Of a stretch of 35,931 bases of DNA, positions 8,373 to 31,185 are shown in pieces. The stretch lies in NCBI GenBank assembly GCA_027071355.1, contig JALSUJ010000212.1, positions 1 through 35,931 on the forward strand, given 5' to 3'. The notes under the pieces are model-generated. The model made no database searches, was not told the DNA's origin, and saw only the letters and a list, made by a program, of their open reading frames with translations. This DNA comes from Gammaproteobacteria bacterium. GTDB taxonomy: Bacteria; Pseudomonadota; Gammaproteobacteria; GRL18. The translations under genes were made by a program, and so were the position numbers. Within the stretch, counting starts at the first letter, position 1, and each line of letters begins with the position of its first letter.

Positions 8373-8949
8373 CGGGGTCTAACAGCCATTACGGGGAACA
8401 CGCATACAACGGGTGCACCTCACTTGCCATAGACACTTTACCCCGCCTACACGGGGAATACTCGCCATCCAGCAGTTTCTGCAATATTTTTAGCCCTTTA
8501 CCCCCACCTACGCGGGGAACACGTAATCGCCCGATTAAGACTGCATTTGCATTACCCTTTACCCCGCCTACACGGGGAATACCAAATGTGCATAGATAAA
8601 TGTAAATATACATCGCCCTTTACCCCCGCCTACACGGGGAATACGCCAGACAAAACTGCTCAACGCTGACAGTTGAACCCTTTACCCCCGCCTACGCGGG
8701 GAAAACGGTACTAACATCATCAGTGAGGTTATATATGCCCCTTTACCCCCGCCTACACGGGGAACACCATTTATCGTTCTCAAACAGCATTATTGCACTT
8801 CCTTTACCCCGCCTACGTGGGGAAAACGGTACTAACATCATCAGTGAGGTTATATATACCCCTTTACCCCCGCCTACACGGGGAACACTAGACCTGTCTT
8901 TATCCTCCACATGGGTCGCCTCCCTTTACCCCGCCTACACGGGGAACAC
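8373..8949 (-). CRISPR. CRISPR array 1, type I-E/IV-A-like repeats, about nine repeats plus a degenerate one
   Basis: Repeats of 28-29 bases (plus strand: starts CCCTTTACCCCCGCC, then TACACGGGGAAYAC) occur at 8434, 8494, 8555, 8616, 8678, 8739, 8800, 8860 and 8922, with spacers of about 32 bases. A decayed repeat ends at 8401. Read on the minus strand the repeat begins GTGTTCCCCGTGTAGG, with the CCCCG/CGGGG stem of type I-E and IV-A arrays. The leader is on the right, so transcription is leftward and the worn end is leader-distal, as expected. Some repeats have lost one C from the CCCCC run. The spacers at 8707 and 8828 are the same but for one base. No cas effector genes are nearby. Confidence 0.95.
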
Positions 8950-9033
8950 TCTTCCTATAAGTTGTTGATTAGCAGGTTGTTTTCAAGCGCCTGTCAATCT
9001 ACCAAATAATATTACCATATTTAGTTATTATTT
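8950..9033 (-). promoter_or_regulatory. Leader of CRISPR array 1
   Basis: The 80 bases next to the last repeat are closely similar to those beside array 2 (shared blocks include TTGATTRGMAGGTTGTTTT and AAGCGCCTG, then CAATCTACCAA and AATATTACCATATT). Conservation of this segment at the same side of both arrays identifies it as the leader. It ends against the stop of the Cas4-like gene, so the array may be co-transcribed with it. Confidence 0.8.
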
Positions 9034-9549
9034 TTAGCTTTTTCCTGCCGCCCATTGACATGCATAGTTATATGCACATCCCCGACATTTTCCCTTACCA
9101 GGTGTGGCGGGTAGTTTTTCACCGTGCTTCGCCTGTCGTGCCTGCTCCACATACAGTGAAATTAGCTCAAAGAGTTTTTTGTCACTATCCGGCAAATCAA
9201 AATATCGTTGCGTTGTCCTTGTTTTCACCAGACATCGAGTGATTGCTTTACCCGATCCCCTGGCAGCTAATGCCGCACAGAAAACCTGGATAACATCACT
9301 GTTATAGATGCGTCCATGTCGGCTTTTGTACTCCACTGCAAGCAAATCCTGCTCGGTTTGGTAGAGAAAGTCGGGTTTGCCTACTAATTGATAGCGACGA
9401 TTGAAGAAAGGTTTCGTTTGTTCCCCATGGTCGATCCAGATGAGCTTTCCTGGAATACCAACTTGCTGTTTTTTCTCACGGGGAAAAAAACGACGAAAAA
9501 GAAGATAAGGCAGCGCCAGTAAAAGAAGAACAAAAACCAATGTATTCAC
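9034..9549 (-). CDS. Membrane-anchored Cas4-like PD-(D/E)XK nuclease, catalytic part
   Basis: A 171-residue protein from ATG 9549. Residues 1-18 form a membrane helix (MNTLVFVLLLLALPYLLF) followed by basic residues. The nuclease core is seen as VGKPDFLY (Asp60) and LLAVEYKSRHGR (Glu73, Lys75), then IYNSDVIQVFCAAL. The C-terminus carries KCRGCAYNYACQW, a C-x2-C-x5-C cluster (Cys155, 158, 164) like that binding the iron-sulphur cluster of Cas4. The fourth, N-terminal cysteine of Cas4 is missing here but present in the upstream ORF (CPYYLVHK). Cas4 acts in CRISPR spacer acquisition or as an exonuclease; with no cas1/cas2 visible, a plasmid DNA-processing role is equally possible. It is the last gene before the array 1 leader. 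Confidence 0.8.
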   Translation of the reverse strand: MNTLVFVLLLLALPYLLFRRFFPREKKQQVGIPGKLIWIDHGEQTKPFFNRRYQLVGKPDFLYQTEQDLLAVEYKSRHGRIYNSDVIQVFCAALAARGSGKAITRCLVKTRTTQRYFDLPDSDKKLFELISLYVEQARQAKHGEKLPATPGKGKCRGCAYNYACQWAAGKS

Positions 9550-15501: not shown

Positions 15502-17266
15502 GGACGCGCTCCTGTTGTTGATTTTGGGCTGGTTTCGTTTTCTTTTTCTTTTTTTGCACTGTGGCGATTTCCTGTAGAAAGGCCGGTGGCTTTTCGATAT
15601 AGCTGATATACAGGGTGCTCTTCGTTCGGGTCATGGCCACATAGAACAAGCGGCGTTCTTCTTCGAGTACCGGTGGTTCAATGTTTTTGGTGTCCACATC
15701 CGCTGCTTTGATCCACACGGTATCGAACTCCAGGCCTTTGGCCGCGTGGAAGGTCGCCACATAGATGGTCTGGTCATTGTCGTGATCGAACGCCGGGCGG
15801 GGTCGCGGGTTGAGCAGTTTTTGCAGAACATCCTCGATGTCCCCCTGGACACTGCAAAACGCATCGGCGGCAATCGTTGTGGTATTAGCACGACGCTGAA
15901 ACAGGTAGTCGTTGTCCACTTTTTTGTAGCGGCTGATGAGCCAGTTTGTTGCAAACAGGACGCTGGCCTGCCAGGTCTCCCCGTCTTGTTGCATTGTTTT
16001 GTATGTCATTAGAATTTCGTTGTATGCCTGCAGGGTCTCGGGCAGACCGGCTTCGCTCAGTGTTTGTGTTGGCACGACACCGGTATTTGCCCGCAGCAAA
16101 TCGACATAGCGTGCAATGGCGTCCTGTTTGACACCGAGATACGCCATCACCGACTGGATGCCGATGCTGTTTTGTGGATTTTCCAAAGACTGGATAAACC
16201 CCAGAAAAAGCGTGCACACCTGATTTTCCCAGAAGGTCCGCCCGGACAGGCGTTGATACGTGAGGCCGGCCACACGCAACACGGCTTCGATTTTGTCCAG
16301 CTGGGCATTGCTGCGGGCCAGTACCGCTTTGGTGCCTTTGTGCGTTGGCAGCTGGGCGGCAATGACCTCCGCTTCCTGTTTGTCGTTGATGCACAGTATC
16401 TGCAACAGGGTGCCGGCCTCGCCGGTGGCTGAGACCAGTTGCTTGGGATGGCGATCATGATTCTGGCTGATGAGCGCGTCTGCCGCATCAAGCACGTCTT
16501 CCGGACAGCGGTAACAGGTATCCAGTACCACCTGGGTCGGATGGGCGATGTGCTGGAATCGTTGTAATCCGGTATAGCCTAACGAATGGCGGAAGGCGTA
16601 AATAGACTGGTCATCGTCGGCCACAACGGTAACCTGAACCCCGCGTTTGACATGCTCGGTCACCCAGGCTAACTGGATATCGTCGATGTCCTGAAACTCG
16701 TCCACCAGCAGGTGCGTGATCGGTAGGGTGTTGAGGACACCCTCACGAAGTGCCAAAACAACGTCCCGGCAGATACCCGGTAAATCGATATAGTTATGCT
16801 CGGTGAGCAGGTGGCGGTAAATACTGTAGGCGTGCCAGGCATCCGGTTCTTTGTTTTTGAGATCGTCCGGGTAGAGGTTGGCACCGTGGCTTTCGATGAT
16901 TTCCTGCATAGCCTCGTAACTGAAAGTTTCCTCGGCCATGTTGATGGTCTGGAAAATCAGGTTGCGTCGATCCACGTTCCCGATCAGTTTTCTTTTGCTG
17001 TGCAAACTGCGGTGCTGGGCGCACAGGTAGGCGTGGAAGGTTTTCACAACGAGACGTGTGCTTTTTGTCTGGGCGGCAATGCGGCTGCGCATCTCATCGG
17101 CGGCGGCTCGCGTGAATGTCACCAGCGCCAGTTTGTTGCTGGGGTTTTTCAGCAGCTCTATCGACCGCTGAATAATCACCCGCGTTTTGCCGGCACCGGG
17201 GCAGGCGGTCACCAGGGTATGGCCGGTAGCATGGATCGCCGCTAACTGTTGTGCGGAATATTCCAC
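15494..17266 (-). CDS. UvrD/Rep-type superfamily 1 DNA helicase
   Basis: A 590-residue protein from ATG 17266. The SF1A motifs are present in order: Q motif (YSAQQLAAI), Walker A (ACPGAGKT, residues 21-28), TFTRAAADEM (motif Ia), DEFQDI (motif II), VVADDDQSIYAFR (motif III), a TCYRCP block (motif IV region), TFHAAKGLEFDTVW (motif V) and EEERRLFYVAMTR (motif VI). It is shorter than UvrD (about 720 residues), mainly by a lysine-rich short tail instead of the usual C-terminal domain. Such enzymes unwind DNA 3' to 5'. Its place between a PH-domain membrane protein and csrA, downstream of a MobI-like protein, suggests a role in plasmid DNA processing. Confidence 0.93.
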   Translation of the reverse strand: MEYSAQQLAAIHATGHTLVTACPGAGKTRVIIQRSIELLKNPSNKLALVTFTRAAADEMRSRIAAQTKSTRLVVKTFHAYLCAQHRSLHSKRKLIGNVDRRNLIFQTINMAEETFSYEAMQEIIESHGANLYPDDLKNKEPDAWHAYSIYRHLLTEHNYIDLPGICRDVVLALREGVLNTLPITHLLVDEFQDIDDIQLAWVTEHVKRGVQVTVVADDDQSIYAFRHSLGYTGLQRFQHIAHPTQVVLDTCYRCPEDVLDAADALISQNHDRHPKQLVSATGEAGTLLQILCINDKQEAEVIAAQLPTHKGTKAVLARSNAQLDKIEAVLRVAGLTYQRLSGRTFWENQVCTLFLGFIQSLENPQNSIGIQSVMAYLGVKQDAIARYVDLLRANTGVVPTQTLSEAGLPETLQAYNEILMTYKTMQQDGETWQASVLFATNWLISRYKKVDNDYLFQRRANTTTIAADAFCSVQGDIEDVLQKLLNPRPRPAFDHDNDQTIYVATFHAAKGLEFDTVWIKAADVDTKNIEPPVLEEERRLFYVAMTRTKSTLYISYIEKPPAFLQEIATVQKKKKKTKPAQNQQQERVHA

Positions 17267-17268
17267 GG

Positions 17269-17994
17269 TTATTTGCGCCTCGCGTACATCCGCTCGTTGA
17301 TGATTTTCTGGATGTTCTCCGGATCCGATACGCCGTGAAACTGCACCTCGGCTCTGTTTGTGCCCGCAGAGGCTAACTCAATCGCGCCTATGCCCAGAAT
17401 ACGGTCAACGTAACCCTGACGTACATCCACAGAGAGAATGTCTTGATATTGAACGCTGGCGCGGTTACGGGCGATGATTCCGGTGATGGTCTCGGCGGTA
17501 TTCTCATTGAGCAGGTATTTCCGTGAAAGCCGTGTTAGGAATATTTTCCCGGCGTAGAACGCGGCAAGCAGTCCGGCGGCCCCCTGCAGACCCGATACCA
17601 GCCAGGGATAATCCGCCAGCCCGTTTACGCCTCGTGATCCCATCGCCATCGACAACACGGTTAGCGGGAACATAAAAACAAACAGGCCGATGAAGATCAG
17701 TGTCCACTCGCGGGGGAAGGCAAACCACGAAGGGCGGTATTTTATGATCTCGAAAATCGCATCCTGTTCCCCCTGGCGCGCCTTTTTCTGAACCTCTGGA
17801 ATCCATTCGGGTTCCCCCTCGATATCAGCAGGCGGTGGGGCTGAATAATCGGATGCCGCCTCGGCATTAACACCCGGCGTTGCCTGTGGCTCGATTTTTC
17901 GACGGATCGAATATTCAGCATTGATGAAATCGATCAGCTCAATCCGGCAATTGGGGCAGTGGATGGATTCGACTGGCTGGTATTTTTTTGCCAT
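17269..17994 (-). CDS. Membrane protein with N-terminal zinc knuckle and C-terminal bacterial PH domain
   Basis: A 241-residue protein from ATG 17994. It starts with a CPNC pair (residues 13-16), then a proline-rich linker, then two membrane helices (WTLIFIGLFVFMFPLTVLSM and WLVSGLQGAAGLLAAFYAGK). The C-terminal 85 residues match the bacterial PH (bPH_2) pattern: YLLNENTAETITGIIARNRA, then YQDILSVDVRQGYVDRILGI, IELASAGT and NIQKIINERM. bPH_2 domains commonly follow paired membrane helices. The stop and the helicase start are 2 bases apart, so the genes are co-translated. The cellular role is unknown; a scaffold at the membrane for DNA transfer functions is possible. Confidence 0.75.
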   Translation of the reverse strand: MAKKYQPVESIHCPNCRIELIDFINAEYSIRRKIEPQATPGVNAEAASDYSAPPPADIEGEPEWIPEVQKKARQGEQDAIFEIIKYRPSWFAFPREWTLIFIGLFVFMFPLTVLSMAMGSRGVNGLADYPWLVSGLQGAAGLLAAFYAGKIFLTRLSRKYLLNENTAETITGIIARNRASVQYQDILSVDVRQGYVDRILGIGAIELASAGTNRAEVQFHGVSDPENIQKIINERMYARRK

Positions 17995-18557
17995 CAGGAT
18001 TCATCTCCAATATCAGGATTCTCATTCAGTAGTTTCTGCATGGTTTTCACCTGCCGCTGGATGGCGTAACAGGTTCGCAGACCGATCCGGCAAATTTCCA
18101 GCCGTCGTTCCGTGTCCATAATCATCGGCAGCTCCCAATCTCGGGCGTGGCGACGAAATGAACTCTCCGGGTAAATGGTGGCGGTTCGACCGGCGCTGCC
18201 CTTGGTGATGCGAATGGATCGGACCAGCTGGCCGCCGGCCTTCGTTTTCACGCAGTTTTGTTTCGTCCAGTCCAGCTCGAATGTTGTTTTGCCCCCACGC
18301 ACCCGTTTGCGGTAACGGACGAAAACGAAACCCTTTTTGTTTATCTCATCCATCTCAGCGTTTTTGGCATCATGCGTACATTTGTATTCATCCACAATCG
18401 CCTGAATCCGTGTCTGCCAGTACCCCACGTTCAAAACATCGTGTGGGGGTGGAAATTCGGGGAATTTTACCCCCCCCTGTTTCCCCACAATATTATCTAT
18501 TGGTTGGGATGGTTTCTCGTCCCCACCATGAATGGGTGTGATTTTTGATTTTTTCAT
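17994..18557 (-). CDS. MobI-like protein, putative oriT-recognition/mobilisation factor
   Basis: I start at ATG 18557 (MKKSKITPIHGGDE); the frame is open upstream to 18689, but that part runs into the repeat region. The product has 187 residues. After a polar N-terminus comes VGYWQTRIQAIVDEYKCTHD, then FVFVRYRKRVRGGKTTFELD, a segment SIRITKGSAG, and SSFRRHARDWELPMIMDTER. This arrangement (aromatic strand plus tryptophan, KG turn, F-x3-A-x-DWE helix) resembles my memory of MobI of SXT/R391 and AcaM of IncA/C plasmids, which are needed for transfer and act at an adjacent oriT. Here too the gene borders a long repeated non-coding region. The assignment is tentative. Confidence 0.5.
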   Translation of the reverse strand: MKKSKITPIHGGDEKPSQPIDNIVGKQGGVKFPEFPPPHDVLNVGYWQTRIQAIVDEYKCTHDAKNAEMDEINKKGFVFVRYRKRVRGGKTTFELDWTKQNCVKTKAGGQLVRSIRITKGSAGRTATIYPESSFRRHARDWELPMIMDTERRLEICRIGLRTCYAIQRQVKTMQKLLNENPDIGDES

Positions 18558-18589
18558 TGAAGACTCTTCTAAAAATGTTGTTTTATTGA

Positions 18590-19045
18590 CTGTTCCACCT
18601 AATTGCCGGTTGTGACGTGCGTCCCACCCTAACTTAGGGTTGGACGGTTGTTTTTGTGGCTGAACCCACGTCCCATTCAGCCGTTCCACCCAATTGCCGG
18701 TTGGCTGTTCTGTTCCAACCCTAATTAGGGTGGGATGAGGCTTTTACGTCCAAAATCCCCGTCCCTTTCGGCTTTTTTGCTCATTTTCGGCTTTCTGGTT
18801 GTCGTCCCACCCTAATTTAGGATTGGATGAGTTGTTTCTCCCACCTGCCTGTTTTTTTTCAGTCGTTCCACCCAATTGCCGGTTGTACTGTGCGCCCCAC
18901 CCTAATTTAGGGTTGGACAGTTGTTTTTGTGGCTGAACCCACGTCCCATTCAGTCGTTCCGCCCAATTGCCGGTTGGCTGTCATGCTCCAACCCTAATTA
19001 GGGTTGGATGAGGCTTTTACGTCCAAAATCCCCTTCCCCTTTTTT
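18590..19045. repeat. Repeat region with five palindromes and a duplicated 170-bp unit; candidate oriT
   Basis: A unit of roughly 170 bases (about 18592-18760) recurs imperfectly at about 18866-19038. Within it the palindrome CCAACCCTAATTAGGGTTGG and close variants occur five times, near 18635, 18715, 18800, 18898 and 18989. The block TTCCACCCAATTGCCGGTTG occurs four times with small changes. No convincing gene is present. The region lies next to a MobI-like gene and between diverging operons. Repeated dyads of this kind are expected at an origin of transfer, a centromere or multiple operator sites. No nic site can be pointed to. Confidence 0.7.
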
Positions 19046-19110
19046 TGGTCCATCAGACGCGTATCCCCGCGCCATGACTTATCTTAGCGCGTTGAAAAAA
19101 GATAAATCGG

Positions 19111-19210
19111 TCTGAAGGTGCCTGTTTTTTATCACTTTCACGGATTTTTTGCCGATTGGCGGTCGATTCGCCCAGGTTTCCGTGAAAGTGCCGTTTTTGG
19201 GGCACTTTCA
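19111..19210. promoter_or_regulatory. Two dyads with half sites TGAARGTG/CACTTTCA at 20-bp spacing
   Basis: Half sites lie at 19113 (TGAAGGTG), 19133 (CACTTTCA), 19183 (TGAAAGTG) and 19203 (CACTTTCA). Each pair is 20 bases apart start to start; the second pair extends to a perfect 10-bp inverted repeat (TGAAAGTGCC, GGCACTTTCA). CACTTTCACGGA and TCCGTGAAAGTG also pair. The first dyad with its centre is nearly identical to the segment upstream of traF (33752-33795), so a common regulator is likely. Confidence 0.6.
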
Positions 19211-19258
19211 GACCCTTTTGCGATTTTTGGATGCCGTAAAATACACGCAGGCGGGGCC

Positions 19259-19353
19259 AGTCGTTCAGTTGAACGACTGGCGAACGACTAGAGTTTTTAT
19301 TTTTTTCATTTTTTTGCGCTAGTCGTTCAGTTGAACGACTAGCGAACGACTAG
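19259..19353. promoter_or_regulatory. Two 33-bp operator/centromere-like units upstream of parM
   Basis: Units at 19259-19291 and 19321-19353 each hold the inverted repeat AGTCGTTCA-GT-TGAACGACT and a third half site CGAACGACTA. They are 62 bases apart, separated by a T-rich stretch, and the second ends at the ribosome-binding site TAGGAG of the ParM-like gene. In ParM systems the small partner protein binds such repeats, which act both as centromere and as autoregulatory operator. Confidence 0.65.
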
Positions 19354-19362
19354 GAGTTTTTG

Positions 19363-20355
19363 ATGAGTATTTTTGCGATTGATCTGGGGTTCAGTAATGT
19401 GAAATTGGCGGTGGGGGGCAATACGGATGTCGAAAGCACCTATCTGATGCCGGCCGGTGTGGTGCCGGCCGGGGATCGCGCCCAGGGGATTACGGACAAA
19501 GCCGCCACCAGTGGCCTGTCCGTGCTGGTGGATGGCGAAATGTATGTGGCCGGTATCGATCACCACGAAACCGGTCGCCACCCGCGTATCCTCGATGCGG
19601 ACTACCCGGCCTCGGTTGATTACCGGGCACTGTATTATGCCGGCCTGGCCACGCTCAATAGCGACCATGTAAAAACCGTGGTTACCGGGTTGCCCAGCTA
19701 TCAGGCGGTGGACAAAAAACGGGTTGATGCCCTGAAAAACATGCTGGTTGGTGAACACCAGGTTGCCAAAAAACGGGTGATTACTGTGGACAATGCCATT
19801 GTGGTGGCACAGCCAACCGGTGCGTATATGGATTATTATGCCTCGGCGGAGGATCCCGAGGGGGTTGAAAACAGCAATGTGCTTATTGTGGATCCCGGCT
19901 TTTTTAGTGTGGACTGGGTACTGGTTTCTCATGGTGCGATTATGGAAAAATCACGAGAGAGCAGCAAAGCGGCTGTCTCGGTCATTCTGGAGGATGCGGT
20001 CAAGTTACTCGGTGAGGATTTTGGTATCAAACCCCGACCGATTGATCTGGAAAAAGCCATACGCGGGGAGTCCACGACTATATGGTTGGCCGGGCGGAAA
20101 GTCGATATCACGGACTATCTGAACCAGGCCAGACATCAGTCCGCTGAAGCGGTGTCTCGCCTGATCAAAATGACCTTGCGAGAAAACGATTGTGCGCCGG
20201 ATATTATTGTGATGGCCGGGGGCGGGGCTGCATATTATGCGGATGCGATTCAGGCCGAGTTTCCTAATAGTCTGTTTGTGCAGCCCGAAGCCCCGGTGTT
20301 CGCCAATGTGCGGGGGTATTTTTTGATTGGGGAATCGGCGGAGAATAACGCGTGA
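19363..20355 (+). CDS. parM-like: ParM/StbA-type actin-like plasmid segregation ATPase
   Basis: About 330 residues from ATG 19363, behind TAGGAG. The actin-fold nucleotide-binding motifs are present: IFAIDLGFSNVKLAVGG (phosphate 1), NVLIVDPGFFSVDWVLVSHG (phosphate 2) and DIIVMAGGGAAYY (adenosine motif). In between are VVTGLPSYQAVDKKRVDAL and AAVSVILEDAVKLLGEDFG, typical of ParM/StbA relatives. Such proteins polymerise into filaments that push plasmid copies apart. The next gene overlaps its stop and encodes the probable adaptor. Upstream repeats would be the centromere. SXT-type elements carry a similar actin-based pair (SrpM/SrpR), in keeping with the rest of the element. Confidence 0.9.
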   Translation: MSIFAIDLGFSNVKLAVGGNTDVESTYLMPAGVVPAGDRAQGITDKAATSGLSVLVDGEMYVAGIDHHETGRHPRILDADYPASVDYRALYYAGLATLNSDHVKTVVTGLPSYQAVDKKRVDALKNMLVGEHQVAKKRVITVDNAIVVAQPTGAYMDYYASAEDPEGVENSNVLIVDPGFFSVDWVLVSHGAIMEKSRESSKAAVSVILEDAVKLLGEDFGIKPRPIDLEKAIRGESTTIWLAGRKVDITDYLNQARHQSAEAVSRLIKMTLRENDCAPDIIVMAGGGAAYYADAIQAEFPNSLFVQPEAPVFANVRGYFLIGESAENNA

Positions 20356-22335: not shown

Positions 22336-22346
22336 ATTTTTTGGAA

Positions 22347-22388
22347 TTGATGTACTCCCCACGAATGAATTCGTGGGGAGTACATCAA
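22347..22388. repeat. Near-perfect 42-bp palindrome overlapping the stop of the gene at 22385
   Basis: TTGATGTACTCCCCACGAAT, two bases, then its exact reverse complement form a 20-bp stem with almost no loop. There is no U run after it in the direction of the gene, so it is not a standard terminator. The sequence recalls hairpins at the ends of IS200/IS605-type elements. A 26-base version of one arm occurs at 1189-1214. Confidence 0.7.
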
Positions 22389-22813
22389 TGTTGTTTCCAG
22401 GGTTTTAGGTAGGGCACGGTTGCTTCTTTTCGATAGCGACCTGGCCAGTGCTGTCCTTTGCCAGTGCGTGTCCATGCTACAATCGAGAAACCGCCACCCT
22501 GATCGGTTTCTGGCAGAAGACGATCACATTGCTCACTAACGATAATTATCGAGAAGGGCGCATCGCTATCATCCTCCCACATTAGCTCCAGTGCCTCGCG
22601 TTGATATTTCCGCCAAAGGCCTCGGGTAACGATTACCTCACGTGCTGATTGCATCTCGTCGAGATAAGATGCTACGATGTCGGGCACTAACAATCGCCCT
22701 ACACCAGCGTTCCAGCTAAGATATACCATGCCGGCTTCGGCCTGGGGTAGATCGAAGTAATTGGTCTGTTTGATACTTGGTCCATTATTGACAATACAAA
22801 TGACGTTTTTCAT
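22385..22813 (-). CDS. Cytoplasmic protein of unknown function beside the CRISPR 2 leader
   Basis: A 142-residue protein from ATG 22813, MKNVICIVNNGPSIKQTNYF..., ending ...KEATVPYLKPWKQH. It has alternating strands and helices (REVIVTRGLWRKYQREALEL, APFSIIIVSEQCDRLL, GGFSIVAWTRTGKGQHW), suggesting a compact alpha/beta domain, and no membrane segment. It lies directly upstream of the array 2 leader on the same strand, with a long palindrome between. Its composition is intermediate between the GC-rich block and the AT-rich plasmid backbone. I recognise no family. Proximity to the array makes a CRISPR-related role worth testing but does not establish one. Confidence 0.6.
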   Translation of the reverse strand: MKNVICIVNNGPSIKQTNYFDLPQAEAGMVYLSWNAGVGRLLVPDIVASYLDEMQSAREVIVTRGLWRKYQREALELMWEDDSDAPFSIIIVSEQCDRLLPETDQGGGFSIVAWTRTGKGQHWPGRYRKEATVPYLKPWKQH

Positions 22814-25293: not shown

Positions 25294-26352
25294 ATGACTA
25301 CAAACCTGACAAAAAAAATCAATATTATTGGTGAAAAAGTTTCCATACGTAACAAGGAAATTGGTCAAATTGAAGCTGAAATTTCTTCAGATACAATAAA
25401 TGAACAAAAACCCACTAAACACAGAAAAGGTTTATCCAGTGATAAAATCATTCAACAGGCTGAAAAGACATTTCTAAGAGATGAACAACTTGGTTTGTTC
25501 GATGTCATTCCGGTTACCAAGAAAAACATCTTTCCTACTATTCTCACTCGAATCCCTATTTTTATGCCCATCACTAAGACTATGCAAAAAAAATTACTTG
25601 ATGAGGATAATGCTTTATCATTTGAAACACCCTTTGGCTCGGGAAAACGATATGGTCCAAACCTGTGTGTTTTTGATGAAGATGTACTGTATGCGCTCTC
25701 AAAATTGACTAAGAAGAAGCTCATCGGGTCTCATAAGAACTTGCCTATAAGAGTTTCTAGTACCTATAAACCAGACAATAAGGGCAATGTCAGAGTTAAT
25801 ACAGTTTTATGTACAATAAGCGACATTCTTAGAGAGATTGAGTTATCGAACGGAGGACGTGAACGTACAAGAGTCCTTGATTCCCTAAAACGCCTGACAA
25901 ACTCATCAATAACGCTAACACTCAAAAAAAATGATCGCTATTTAGGTAATTGTGAAATAGGTAAATCGGTCAAATTGATTGATATCGAGTGGCAGTTGTA
26001 TTCAGAGGAAGGGTTTATCTATGGCCAATTTTCCCCGGTAGTCACTTATTGGCTAGAACAAGAATACACATATCTGGACTGGGACATACGTAAACGACTA
26101 AAAAGTGCCTTGGCAAAGGCACTACACCGTTTTTTATCCGGGCAGATAAATAAAAAAAATAAGATATTTTCAAAATTGAACAAGATCGACGATATTGCTG
26201 TGAGTATTGGTTTTCACTGTCGAAAAAGAGACATAAAAAAGCATTTTACAAACGCGCTCGATGAACTTGTTGGAGCCGGTTATTTGACCGAATTTGAGAT
26301 TACTGGTACGGGCCGATCAGAGCCCTTCAGGTTATTTGCTATGCGTGGATAG
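25294..26352 (+). CDS. repA: Plasmid replication initiator protein
   Basis: A 352-residue protein from ATG 25294; the ribosome-binding site is weak. Its N-terminal 60 residues are lysine-rich and polar. The core has RVNTVLCTISDILREIELSN, then RTRVLDSLKRLTNSSITLTL, EGFIYGQFSPVVTYWLEQEY, LDWDIRKRLKSALAKALHRF and KKHFTNALDELVGAGYLTEF. This is the layout of two winged-helix domains found in iteron-binding initiators (RepA/TrfA-like). It is followed directly by thirteen iterons, its expected binding sites. I cannot assign an Inc group. Confidence 0.85.
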   Translation: MTTNLTKKINIIGEKVSIRNKEIGQIEAEISSDTINEQKPTKHRKGLSSDKIIQQAEKTFLRDEQLGLFDVIPVTKKNIFPTILTRIPIFMPITKTMQKKLLDEDNALSFETPFGSGKRYGPNLCVFDEDVLYALSKLTKKKLIGSHKNLPIRVSSTYKPDNKGNVRVNTVLCTISDILREIELSNGGRERTRVLDSLKRLTNSSITLTLKKNDRYLGNCEIGKSVKLIDIEWQLYSEEGFIYGQFSPVVTYWLEQEYTYLDWDIRKRLKSALAKALHRFLSGQINKKNKIFSKLNKIDDIAVSIGFHCRKRDIKKHFTNALDELVGAGYLTEFEITGTGRSEPFRLFAMRG

Positions 26353-26354
26353 TT

Positions 26355-26938
26355 GCGTGTCATTTATGGCTAAAGACCCCGAAACCGAGTATAAGTGATT
26401 GATTTTTTGTCCACGAGTAGCGTGTCATTTGCGGCTGAACCCCTCTTTGTATCCTGAAGATTATTGTAAAACCTGCGTGTCATTTGTGGCTAAAGACCCG
26501 AAACCGAGTATAAGTAATTGATTTTTTGTCCACGAGTAGCGTGTTATTTGCGGCTGAACCACTCTTTGTATCCTGAAGATTATTGTAAAACCTGCGTGTC
26601 ATTTATGGCTAAAGACCCCGAAACCGAGTATAAGTAATTGATTTTTTGTCCACGAGTAGCGTGTCATTTGCGGCTGAACCACTCTTTGTATCCTGAAGAT
26701 TATTGTAAAACCTGCGTGTCATTTGTGGCTAAACCCCTCTTTGTATCCTGAAGATTATTGTAAAACCTGCGTGTCATTTGTGGCTAAAGACTCGAAACCT
26801 GGTATAAGTAATTGATTTTTTGTCCACAGGGTTGCGTGTCATTTGTGGCTTAGTAGCGTGTCATTTGTGGCTTAGTAGCGTGTCATTTGTGGCTTAGTAG
26901 CGTGTCAGTTGTGGCTTAGTAGCGTGTCAGTTGTGGCT
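26355..26938 (+). repeat. oriV: oriV: thirteen 17-bp iterons
   Basis: GCGTGTCATTTGTGGCT or close variants start at 26355, 26420, 26475, 26539, 26594, 26659, 26714, 26769, 26834, 26856, 26878, 26900 and 26922. The last five are exactly 22 bases apart (two helical turns); the earlier ones are 55-65 apart, in a roughly 120-base super-repeat that also carries ATAAGTAATTGATTTTTTGT and a TTGTCCAC segment like a DnaA box (TTTGTCCACAGGG near 26819). An AT-rich stretch follows (26939-27050), suited to strand opening. Confidence 0.92.
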
Positions 26939-27051
26939 TAACGATATTTAGTTGATCGCTATATCATTGATTTATATATATTTCTTTTTGTATTTTACCT
27001 GGCTAGTCTTTTTTAATCTTTCTAAGTCTATTCTAGTCAATTCATAACAAA

Positions 27052-27700
27052 AACCCTCCACCCGCAAAACAGCAGGGGAGGGTTCTTATTATGGGTAACA
27101 ATGCGGCACACGTGCCACATTGTTACCCTGTTCAATCCGCTCAGCACGACGTTTCTGTGCTGAGCGGATGTTTTTTAATTTAACTCGGCGCGCCATACTG
27201 GTGCGCCGAGTCAAATTAAACTCATCCCGCATATATTTTGCGGGATGAGTTTTATCCTCATCCACCATCTTTATGGTGGATGAGGATCTGTCATGCTTTT
27301 CTTCCAGCATGACTTTGACAACCTTCCCTTTTTCTAATGCTCCAATTCCCTGTGGAGCTATTTTTTCTTTCTTTACCGGTCGGGTGACCGGCAAAGAAAG
27401 AATTTTTCTCATCACCATCATGGTGATAATGATCGCCATGATGGTGACTTCTAAACAGAGCAGACTGTGCATAGTACACTCCTGGCATATTGCCTGTTAT
27501 GCCGTAATAATAATTACGGCGTTAAAAAAATGCCCGGTGACAGTAGCACTAAGTGCTATTATCAATCGGGCGTTTATGGGGTCTATACCCCGTAAGCAAT
27601 CATTAACGATTGCTTGATTTACCCTCGGATGAGGGCGTGCCTACAGGTATCGCATACATACTTGATCGTAGCTATGTATAACACTCCCTGTAAGCTAGTT
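27052..27700. repeat. Array of about 17 consecutive, unrelated hairpins
   Basis: Inverted repeats follow each other with only a few bases between: 27052-27084, 27093-27128 (11 bp), 27135-27169 (13 bp), 27177-27217, 27218-27252 (14 bp), 27254-27287 (15 bp, 4-base loop), 27290-27313, 27339-27358, 27365-27402, 27412-27447 (12 bp), 27484-27503, 27501-27520, 27532-27571, 27576-27593, 27594-27615, 27622-27635 and 27654-27679. Arms differ from hairpin to hairpin; several stems are perfect. Three or four are followed by T runs. Open frames here are fragmentary and follow the palindromes. Between 27700 and 27798 I see nothing. Confidence 0.85.
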
Positions 27701-27798
27701 TTTTAGGAAAACCGTCAAAAACCCTTTTTATACTTGTAAAGTCAAGTCGTCTCCATAGAGACTAAAACCCTTTATTAAGATATCAGCGATAATTCAGA

Positions 27799-30700
27799 CT
27801 ATTTTTGTTTAGATATGTCAGGAAACTTTATTTGTTGTGGTATAACCATTGCTTTATAAATGTTCTCAATTTGGCTATCGCCAATTGCTGCCATATCACT
27901 TAGATTTTCCCAAACTTTTCTATCTCTAGGGTTATTTAGATTAAGACCGAACTTCTGTGCGATGATTGAGCGATCGTCACCGATCACCGGATTATCTTCT
28001 TTCATTAAAGCATTGTTTATCATTGTCGAATACGGTGCGGCGGCATCCGCTAATCTGTTGACAACTGGATCACCAAGAGTAACCATGTTGGGCTTATATT
28101 GACCGTTATGCGTGTCCTTCCATTGCTGAATTTCTTCCGGTGGAATATAACCTGACACAAGACTCGCAAAAGCTGAGGCCTGGTTTTCATTAAGTCCTCT
28201 ATTTTTAAACTCTTTCATTTTTTGATCATAAAGTCCATGTGCTAGTTGAATATCCTTTCCAGCTTGGGCAAAAGTTAACTTTCCATGAGCAGCGTCCCAG
28301 GTCATGCCACCAATAATTTCACCAGTTCGATGTGCAAAATTCGGTATTGAATCATACAATGCATGGCCAAATTGCGGGAGGCTGTTAACAACCCTATTAA
28401 CACCGCCTTCATCGTTTATATTTGCTATGGCGTTAACCATTGCTTCATGATTTTTCTGGTATGTTTTTGCATAGGCGCTTACCCCTGTTGCCTCAACTTT
28501 GTTTTTGAATCCGCTGTATGCCTCTGTTGGGTTTGCATTACGTGACTGGTTATCTACTTTTCCAATATTATTATTGGCTGTTTTTTTCAAGCTGTTTATG
28601 TTTGACCTTATCGGTTTTATTTTATCGTCATCAGCTTGTTTAATGGCCCGATTTTCATTGGGATTTATTACCGGTTTATTTTTTAAATTACGATTGTTTT
28701 CGCTGTTATCCATTGTTTTTAGAACATTTTCCCTTTCCACCTCATTATATCCAGCATTAACATGGCTTCTCGATGGTGTCATTGATTCTTCAGGATGCTC
28801 GTGTTCATAATTTTCGGTCCAGTCATAAAGCGATTCAAATTGAGCCAGTTTTGTTACTGAATCGCTGGATAGTACCTGCCCCCAGGATGATGCTCTCAGC
28901 TGCTGAATTCTTTTATTTACATCTGCACCTAAATTGTTTTTTCCAATTAATTTATCAGCTGAACGACTCCATTCTGACGATAGATTATTTGCTAATCTTG
29001 ATTTACGTATTGAAACACTATTCCCAACGCTACTACTATTCGAAGCGGTTTTACTATATTGCTCTATATGACTTCTTGTTTTGTTAACTGCTTTGCTTAG
29101 GCTCTGGTTAAATCCACCTGATGTCGAGTTACTAGCGTTATCGGTCGAATTGTAAGCGGTTGATTTAATCAGGTTTTCTCCTAATTTTGCTTCAACGCCC
29201 GATGTGTTGCTTTCCATTTCTTTCACGCTTGCGTTGAAATCGCTCATAATAGAGGATGTTTTATCGGATGATGTGCTAATTTTAGGTAAGAAGCTGGCTA
29301 AAGAATTGCCTATACTCTTAACTTTGGTTTGCTCTTCCTTGCTTAATTCTCCATCGGCATCGCGTTTTCCTCCAGTGAGGATATTCAATATCTCTGCACC
29401 TGCAATAGCCACTGCGCTACTTTGTTTTTCAGTAAGGTTGGTTTTATTACCCATCCCAATTGCGTTATTTACCGATTTAGCAAGACTGGCGCTTATGTCT
29501 TGTGAATAACCAGCGTTTGTGTTATGTGATGATCCTATGGTTCGACTACCAGCCTGTCCTACTGTGTAATTCGTCGCTATCATTTTGGCTGCCGTGGCTC
29601 CGAGATTTTCTGTTGAACCTTTACTATAAGTGCTTAGACTCTGAGTGGCATTTGAATGCATTTTGTTAATAGTCATAGAGCCACCTCCAACAGGATCAGT
29701 TGCGAAATCACCATTTACTATACTATGCGACACCGGTGCTATATTTTGTACATATGGTGCTGGTTGTATGCTGTCAGGTGAAACAATCTTTTCATTAACA
29801 AAATCACGACCACGTAAATTACCTGCCAGTGATGCCGCCGCCTGGGTTCCGCCATAAATTAACATCAGCGTTATAACCGGCGTAATAGCGATTAACATTG
29901 AGCCTGTTTGATACCAGGTCACTGCGATCTGGTCTGTAGTGAACAGTCCATTGATGGACGCTAATGACATCCCGCCTGTTGCCGTTAGGGTGTCAAGATG
30001 TCCCTCAAATGCTGATAAAATAAAAAAGTTGATAATTGCCATCACCGGATACCATAATTGTATCCACATGGCAAATTTAAAATAAGCTGCTAACAAGCCG
30101 TAGCCGGCAGCACCAAAAGCGAGAATAAAACCTAATATAGGTGTAACCGCATACATGGCAGCTTCAAAAAACGTCATTAACGGTTTTGATATAAGCGTCC
30201 AGTTATCTTTATCCGATTGCCATTGAACCAGGCGCTGATTAGTTGCCTGGTTTATCATTATTTGATAATTATTATTGTTCGATAGAATCGATTTGGCTAT
30301 CGCGGCATCAGGTAGCGCGTTTTTTAGTACATTATTTAGAATATATGTGGTTGCGGTAATCGTCGTTGCTCCTCCCCGAGCATTTAGTGTATCGACGAGA
30401 TTCTGTACCCTGATTTGTGCCTCTGCTACAGATTGTCCGGTGTTTGCTGCAAGTTGTTTGTAAATGGCTCCTTGAAACTGTGATGATAACAGATCATTTT
30501 TTATGAACCCCCAGGCAAGATGACAATCATAAAAGGCCGGGGGCGTTCCAGTAAGATTAACATAGGTGGTACTTGTAACCGTTGTTGATTGTATTGCAGT
30601 CAAAAAATCATTAGCCGCGTATAATTGACTGAGTATCTTTGCTTTATGACCCAGGTCAAATGACAGGCAGTTTGTATAATACTGCGTTAATGCTTCTTCT

Positions 30701-31185
30701 CTGTCTGACAATGGTTTATGGTTTGTGTCTACAGGGTCTGTACCTTTAACCGTTAATTCACCTACTGCTCGCATAGTCGTTATCTCATCAGCAAAACCTT
30801 TTTGGGTTATCTCTGGGCGGGAATAGCCGGTTTCAAATAGTGATGTAAGGCCTTCGCCAACCTGCGATATAATCATGCCGCTGTAGGCCACACCGGTAGG
30901 AACATGACCTACCGAGTATGGGGTCCCTGTTCGAACATCCTTTACAATGACCGTTTTTGTTGTTGAGAAAAACGCCAGCCAGATTATTGCGGCGATGAAG
31001 ATCGAGGAAATGTTAAATTCTTTTGTTCCTCCCATTGCACTCTGTATTGCAACATACATGACACCTAAAATAAAGCCAGCAGCGCTTAAATTGTGAAAGG
31101 CTTGTGATTGGGTAATCATGGCCATGGCGTTTAATGTATCCTTTAAAAACTGAGCGTCACCCAATGAGAGTATTTCTATTGCCAT
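27799..31185 (-). CDS. traG: TraG, F-type conjugation mating-pair stabilisation protein
   Basis: An 1128-residue protein from ATG 31185. The N-terminal part has membrane helices (about residues 30-80), a periplasmic stretch, and a second group at about 345-455 (VTPILGFILAFGAAGYGLLA, YPVMAIINFFILSAF, MLIAITPVITLMLIYGG). The rest (about 480-1128) is a long polar, Ser/Asn/Thr-rich domain with helical segments, as in TraG of F-type systems. TraG takes part in pilus assembly and mating-pair stabilisation, and in some plasmids in entry exclusion. It follows TraH and TraF in the usual order F-H-G and is the last gene before the hairpin array. Confidence 0.9.
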   Translation of the reverse strand: MAIEILSLGDAQFLKDTLNAMAMITQSQAFHNLSAAGFILGVMYVAIQSAMGGTKEFNISSIFIAAIIWLAFFSTTKTVIVKDVRTGTPYSVGHVPTGVAYSGMIISQVGEGLTSLFETGYSRPEITQKGFADEITTMRAVGELTVKGTDPVDTNHKPLSDREEALTQYYTNCLSFDLGHKAKILSQLYAANDFLTAIQSTTVTSTTYVNLTGTPPAFYDCHLAWGFIKNDLLSSQFQGAIYKQLAANTGQSVAEAQIRVQNLVDTLNARGGATTITATTYILNNVLKNALPDAAIAKSILSNNNNYQIMINQATNQRLVQWQSDKDNWTLISKPLMTFFEAAMYAVTPILGFILAFGAAGYGLLAAYFKFAMWIQLWYPVMAIINFFILSAFEGHLDTLTATGGMSLASINGLFTTDQIAVTWYQTGSMLIAITPVITLMLIYGGTQAAASLAGNLRGRDFVNEKIVSPDSIQPAPYVQNIAPVSHSIVNGDFATDPVGGGSMTINKMHSNATQSLSTYSKGSTENLGATAAKMIATNYTVGQAGSRTIGSSHNTNAGYSQDISASLAKSVNNAIGMGNKTNLTEKQSSAVAIAGAEILNILTGGKRDADGELSKEEQTKVKSIGNSLASFLPKISTSSDKTSSIMSDFNASVKEMESNTSGVEAKLGENLIKSTAYNSTDNASNSTSGGFNQSLSKAVNKTRSHIEQYSKTASNSSSVGNSVSIRKSRLANNLSSEWSRSADKLIGKNNLGADVNKRIQQLRASSWGQVLSSDSVTKLAQFESLYDWTENYEHEHPEESMTPSRSHVNAGYNEVERENVLKTMDNSENNRNLKNKPVINPNENRAIKQADDDKIKPIRSNINSLKKTANNNIGKVDNQSRNANPTEAYSGFKNKVEATGVSAYAKTYQKNHEAMVNAIANINDEGGVNRVVNSLPQFGHALYDSIPNFAHRTGEIIGGMTWDAAHGKLTFAQAGKDIQLAHGLYDQKMKEFKNRGLNENQASAFASLVSGYIPPEEIQQWKDTHNGQYKPNMVTLGDPVVNRLADAAAPYSTMINNALMKEDNPVIGDDRSIIAQKFGLNLNNPRDRKVWENLSDMAAIGDSQIENIYKAMVIPQQIKFPDISKQK

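Follow-up and report, generated by a model that had tools for sequence, protein, structure and literature searches.

Seventeen consecutive hairpins of unrelated sequence between the iteron origin and traG of a putative IncC/SXT-like conjugative plasmid

The window, by which we mean the whole stretch of 35,931 nucleotides analysed here (contig JALSUJ010000212.1, Gammaproteobacteria bacterium), carries a replication initiator gene (rep) with its iterons, a transfer gene block and the genes of a partition and mobilization region (Table 1). Besides the matches given in the table, Pfam domains were recognized for ParB, a SopB-like protein, ParA, TraF and TraH (both on the minus strand), an FlhC-like regulator and an SLT transglycosylase, together with a weak FlhD-like match. 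Judged from these domains, the contig is an IncC/SXT-like conjugative plasmid. A Shewanella IncC plasmid and a Pseudoalteromonas plasmid also possess the set formed by traF, traH, traG, SLT, FlhDC-type regulators, ParM and mobI, as does Yersinia pYR1 in the part considered; in the plasmid described here its order is rearranged.

Table 1. Coordinates of the features discussed, in the window unless a contig handle is given.
Feature	Position	Strand	Remarks
Replication initiator (Rep)	25294..26352	+	Weak Pfam RPA match
Iterons	26355..26945	+	GCGTGTCATTTGTGGC and variants; 10-mer GCGTGTCATT at least 10 times
AT-rich stretch	26945..27042	.	Probable DNA unwinding element of the origin (putative role)
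traG (TraG_N)	27799..31185	-	End of traF-traH-traG block; convergent with rep
mobI	17994-18689	-	Pfam MobI
ParM-like actin	19360-20355	+	Pfam
Probable oriT region	18690..19359	.	Gap between mobI (-) and parM-like gene (+), with palindromes; putative
Hairpin 1	27043..27093	.	GGAGGG stem, then TTTTTGTT on minus strand; two plus-strand A-C mismatches are G-U on minus
Hairpin 2	27093..27128	.	17-pair stem, one mismatch
Hairpin 3	27135..27169	+	Perfect 13-14 bp stem, then GTTTTTT on plus; terminator-like
Hairpin 4	27174..27220	.	22-pair stem, loop 3
Hairpin 5	27218..27252	.	Perfect 14 bp, loop 7
Hairpin 6	27254..27287	.	Perfect 15 bp, loop 4
Hairpin 7	27290..27313	.	Perfect 8 bp
Hairpin 8	27338..27359	+	Perfect 6-7 bp, then TTTTTT on plus; terminator-like
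Hairpin 9	27365..27402	+	17-pair stem, one mismatch; TTTTT on plus
Hairpin 10	27412..27447	.	16-pair stem; both arms nearly palindromic themselves
Hairpin 11	27456..27496	.	Weak, irregular
Hairpin 12	27499..27522	.	10-pair stem
Hairpin 13	27529..27574	-	Long stem, then TTTTTTT on minus; terminator-like for traG transcripts
Hairpin 14	27576..27594	.	From local folding
Hairpin 15	27594..27615	.	
Hairpin 16	27621..27636	.	5 bp, weak
Hairpin 17	27640..27694	+	Stem interrupted; T-tract on plus
T4CP/mobC divergent-gene gap	L012 8516-9562
T4CP/mobC divergent-gene gap	L239 3962-5000
T4CP/mobC divergent-gene gap	L240 3891-5000
T4CP/mobC divergent-gene gap	L241 3314-4931
T4CP/mobC divergent-gene gap	L242 2043-3049
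T4CP/mobC divergent-gene gap	L243 3776-4838

The oriT of IncA/C plasmids is found directly upstream of mobI (PMC5587640), and the gap at the corresponding position is therefore the probable oriT of this plasmid. Several copies of the palindrome CCACCCTAAnTTAGGGTTGG and two of the palindrome GTCGTTCAGTTGAACGAC occur in this region (18620-19344). Elsewhere, a perfect 44-nt palindrome (22346-22389; 21-bp arms, 2-nt centre) lies at the end of the open reading frame 22385-22813.

Along the plasmid, rep, the iterons and the AT-rich stretch are followed by a non-coding array of about 650 bases (27043-27694) and then by the 3' end of traG (27799). The array is made up of 17 consecutive hairpins, and lies about 8 kb from the probable oriT. 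The preliminary description had reported such a run, in steps of roughly 37 bases, with the iteron origin on one side and the end of traG on the other; both its position and its periodicity are borne out, the mean centre-to-centre spacing being 37.4 nt, but it begins at 27043, about 9 nt to the left of the start originally given (27052). The gaps between hairpins are mostly of -3 to 9 nt, with a single gap of 24, the loops comprise 2-12 nt and the stems reach 22 bp. The perfect stems of 11-15 bp described at first are indeed found, for instance in hairpins 5 and 6, whereas hairpin 4 forms 22 pairs and hairpins 11, 16 and 17 are weak or irregular. Local folding of 27040-27720 resolved 16 domains covering 89% of the sequence, with 69% of the bases paired, and the array folds as a chain of independent hairpins, not as a compact structure.

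The array is real and far beyond chance. Its minimum free energy as RNA is -325.7 kcal/mol, compared with -174.3 ± 6.4 in dinucleotide shuffles (z -23.6), so that sequences of the same composition, proposed beforehand as a possible refutation, do not match it; z remained at -23.1 when the folding span was limited to 80 nt. With DNA parameters, z was -21.9 for the plus and -23.4 for the minus strand, and none of 20 shuffles was as stable. Five perfect hairpins of at least 9 bp were observed where 0.02 were expected. Furthermore, the strongest 300-nt window of the array (z -13.5) was the most extreme among about 11,800 windows of this size drawn from Rep-related, TraG-bearing and control contigs; 300-nt scans of later contig sets gave z -8.4 at most, and the mob gap of an Enterobacter plasmid z -10.0. 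Strong hairpins are no more frequent than usual on the rest of the plasmid: there are 1.4 per 10 kb outside the array, compared with 2.8 on the remaining contigs of this genome and 1.9 on further tra-bearing contigs.

The array is known from this one contig of a 4.17-Mb draft genome, and no homologue was found in plasmid and phage collections, where its DNA retrieved no similar sequence, or in its own genome. Repeat, arm, copy-number and family searches agree with the initial view that it is not a repeat family, a CRISPR array, a set of iterons or a gene. As had also been stated, the hairpins do not share arms, the mutual similarity of which is no higher than that of shuffled arms. No direct-repeat family runs through the array that could provide the shared unit of a CRISPR or TIGR array, and its single copy in the genome sets it apart from dispersed repeats (REP, BIME or MITE). 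Similarly, comparison of arms revealed no sequence common to hairpin feet or arms beyond chance, so that the conserved core sites of an attC cassette array are not seen. Neither of the two overlapping open reading frames resembles a protein gene, and the one on the plus strand has no family match. No Rfam family matched above its gathering score, and the iteron, searched in viral contigs, gave three single matches and no iteron cluster. The array is not a linear-plasmid telomere, being internal in the 35.9-kb contig, 8 kb and 27 kb from its ends. A structure-only covariance model built from synthetic triple hairpins detects the array with filters off; the genome search with a structure-only model did not return the array, and its one weak match was a different hairpin element. 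The statement that no element of this form has been described holds for the open-access literature searched, in which none was found.

Several other structured elements were encountered during these searches. An element of about 160 bp with five unrelated hairpins and terminal inverted repeats (L121 6585-6745, on the G147 chromosome) is also present in genomes G402 and G403; it has about 40 copies in G147, with some stem pairs compensated between copies, and looks like a multi-hairpin MITE. As a dispersed repeat it is a different thing from the array and was rejected as an analogue. Another multi-hairpin dispersed repeat belongs to the host genome, where it has roughly 10-26 matches, on contig G000:C56 (L217 10350-10600) and on no fewer than nine others; its core shares 75-86% identity with the G147 element, which comes from another family. 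In a TraG-bearing, ICE-like stretch, three strong unrelated hairpins (L100 14695-14808) shortly precede Rfam matches to RAGATH-32 and RAGATH-13. In L042 (8997-9326), palindromes of AGTTTCTCCGAGAAACT are repeated in 42-nt steps at a distance of about 1 kb past a related rep gene; this region and one in L041 were likewise discarded as analogues, consisting of repeated palindromes or other structure.

Relatives of Rep, 28-39% identical, were found in Methylomonas, Tenderia, Thiodictyon and Bermanella plasmids and in many MAGs. In several of them the sequence again passes through an AT-rich minimum some 500-750 nt past rep; most of those examined have no array after rep, and none follows traG in the IncC-like and MobI-bearing relatives examined. 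Given this distribution, the array was not inherited with the backbone and does not serve a core function. TraG and MobI were rejected as its carriers, since relatives possessing them lack it, and so was Rep, as only two of its relatives have arrays, at other places. In the first, contig L037, which shares the ParB-SopB-ParA-Rep backbone, the array (16080-16700; z -6.4) follows rep and cargo and precedes a ParB/TraD-like block; in the second, Bermanella pBma45, it separates the coupling-protein gene from the transfer operon (8580-9540; z -12.9). Both arrays stand where replicon and transfer modules meet, between divergent genes, and neither shows sequence similarity to the array studied here.

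The pBma45 array fills the gap between the coupling-protein (T4CP) gene and a downstream gene of the MobC family, and gaps in this position are likewise filled with hairpins in two Vibrio plasmids, Pseudomonas silvicola p2, pK432-IMP and an Eleftheria plasmid. The mobC homologues of Vibrio, Pseudomonas, Enterobacter and Eleftheria plasmids follow hairpin-filled gaps of 1.0-1.6 kb, with 11-27 consecutive hairpins whose stems are mostly unrelated. Folding z in the six gaps ranged from -3.4 to -9.2, as measured against Markov and not exact dinucleotide shuffles. In many hairpins whose stems are unrelated, the loop is TGGACG or TGGGCG (TGGRCG; e.g. accccgcgcgTGGGCGcgcggggt). On the mobC-sense strand of the gaps TGGACG was counted 17 times, and the opposite strand has none. 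Such a one-strand pattern would be the expected look of a single-strand signal near a transfer origin, and these loops are possibly an undescribed signal of this kind in the mob/oriT region. No TGGRCG loop is present in the array studied here, whose plasmid carries MobI and not MobC, and it is therefore at most a functional analogue of the mobC-gap arrays.

On the conjugative contig L115, the sequence preceding an HU gene contains a further hairpin array (116-700), which has a homologue, 76% identical, in L160 (1500-1860). Both copies fold strongly, and at one position a hairpin has been swapped for an unrelated one; seven compensated pairs were counted, against a null mean of 3.1 and a maximum of 9. 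The pair offers weak evidence for the upkeep of structure by hairpin turnover.

The two strands of the array were compared for a preference in folding. On the plus strand, departures of the strong hairpins from Watson-Crick pairing look symmetric (four G-T and five A-C). The whole-fold strand test, which is more sensitive than this count of wobble pairs, showed the minus strand to be 27.1 kcal/mol more stable as RNA, compared with -5.8 ± 7.1 in shuffles, of which 0 of 100 reached the observed value (z -3.0). The left half of the array carries this advantage (z -4.0) and the right half shows none; with DNA parameters the strand difference was -7.3, against about -5.5 in shuffles. Because several strand tests were made, the asymmetry is to be taken as moderate evidence; this modest preference hints at selection on minus-strand RNA.

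T-tracts follow the hairpins starting at 27135, 27338, 27365 and 27640 on the plus strand and that at 27529 on the minus strand, at least five T in eight positions being found at 5 of the 34 hairpin ends, and a scan with a strict terminator consensus returned two terminators where 0.7 were expected. Both convergent units very likely have working terminators in this region. Such terminators would explain no more than about five of the 17 hairpins, and the preliminary suggestion of a terminator series would reach no further than these. The array might nevertheless be a transcription barrier as a whole, in which terminators and stable 3' hairpins keep convergent tra and origin transcripts apart, an explanation we regard as doubtful. 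Its location between convergent units and the T-tracts would be accounted for, as would the better folding of the minus strand, the product of tra read-through; however, no T-tract follows twelve of the hairpins, one or two terminators are normally enough, and in L037 and pBma45 the genes flanking the arrays are divergent, an arrangement in which there is little use for terminators.

Alternatively, the array could be a functionless by-product of mutation, in which template switching repeatedly perfects quasipalindromes at sites where the DNA is frequently single-stranded or replication stalls. The near-perfect arms of unrelated sequence are as this explanation would have them, template switching is known to make quasipalindromes perfect (PMC7202029), and the perfect, unrelated palindromes of nematomorph mitochondria, thought to arise in this way, provide a precedent (PMC6649704). 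The wholesale replacement of a hairpin between L115 and L160, with so few compensated pairs, is also in its favour. Yet the RNA strand asymmetry is not predicted, and since hairpin density is ordinary elsewhere on the plasmid, template switching would need to act on these 650 bp only; we consider this origin unlikely. Quite improbable, finally, is a structured non-coding RNA from the minus strand with a function comparable to that of the small RNA required for SGI1 mobilisation in the IncC/SGI1 system (PMC9299015), as it would explain the strand asymmetry only, lacks an Rfam match, a recognizable promoter and a homologue, and would be a chain of independent hairpins instead of a compact fold; the single large RNA first suggested is weakened by these points, although the minus strand does fold better.

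Most likely, the array acts when its DNA or its transcript is single-stranded. For either strand on its own, folding predicts a chain of about 17 hairpins, each stable and independent of the others. We tentatively put first, as a possibility well short of even, that the array is a cis-acting single-strand folding zone similar to sso or ssi sites, because this explains its position, its lost sequence identity and its analogues. The region would become single-stranded during conjugative transfer or melting of the origin, and the hairpin chain might then offer structured landing sites for complementary-strand priming by primase, a primosome or RNA polymerase or, alternatively, keep SSB and RecA off the entering strand. 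Unrelated arms and fast turnover would follow, since structure would matter and sequence would not.

A single-strand folding zone is consistent with the extreme folding of both strands under RNA and DNA parameters, with the place of the array directly after the iterons and the AT-rich element, with the unrelated arrays at the replicon/transfer border of L037 and pBma45, whose Reps are related, and with the gap arrays of pBma45 and five mobC plasmids bearing a one-strand loop motif. That structure can suffice has been demonstrated for an sso, which still functioned after its primary sequence was replaced and its structure retained (PMC4595007). Against it, known sso and ssi sites comprise a few hairpins and not 17, most relatives of Rep have no array beside rep and the IncC-like relatives none after traG, the array is thus not a core function, it lies away from the probable oriT and lacks TGGRCG loops, and its strands differ in stability with RNA parameters and hardly with DNA parameters, which hints at RNA. 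Moreover, the F-plasmid Frpo folds to mimic a promoter (PMC11541004), whereas promoter-like (-35/-10) matches in the array number 3 against 2.4 expected, amounting to no promoter mimic. The array is accordingly not classed as an sso, and priming is only a candidate function; the single-strand landing zone envisaged in the preliminary description agrees with the position of the array and with the mob-region arrays of other plasmids. More speculatively still, conjugative plasmids might carry a general class of DNA elements defined by structure alone and free of any fixed sequence: dense rows of unlike hairpins that stand at the border of replication and transfer modules, as in the present array and L037, or in the mob region, as in pBma45 and other mobC plasmids. 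Such elements would work on the single strand, whether transferred or melted, and would be renewed through the turnover of hairpins, not conserved as a sequence; we think this somewhat doubtful. Such arrays may have been overlooked, because homology searches miss elements whose arms are all different. Should the array work on single-stranded DNA, either entering or melted, it would give a large plasmid a new means of starting the second strand or of shielding itself; should it be a by-product of template switching only, this mutation process would have left a striking record of itself in nature.

Among known systems, the mobC-gap arrays resemble the array in being consecutive hairpins with mostly unrelated stems, but they adjoin mobC and share one-strand TGGRCG loops, neither of which applies here. 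Convergent intrinsic terminators have the convergent position and some T-tracts in common with it, and differ from its 17 hairpins, most of which have no T-tract. The telomeres of Streptomyces linear plasmids are dense rows of different palindromes that fold on the single strand at DNA ends; compared with them in position only, the array is internal, beside iterons, and not terminal. Nematomorph mitochondrial palindromes, whose upkeep by template switching or conversion has been proposed, are likewise many, perfect and mutually unrelated, but are scattered in coding genes (PMC6649704), whereas the array is a dense non-coding chain. The sso of rolling-circle plasmids and ICEBs1 and the Frpo/ssi of the F plasmid consist of about three hairpins or one promoter-mimicking fold, while the array has neither such a mimic nor a sequence match to them; like it, they are non-coding and reside on mobile elements, and they function as folded single-stranded DNA in which structure can outweigh sequence (PMC4595007, PMC11541004), a property to which the stable single-strand fold predicted for the array would correspond.
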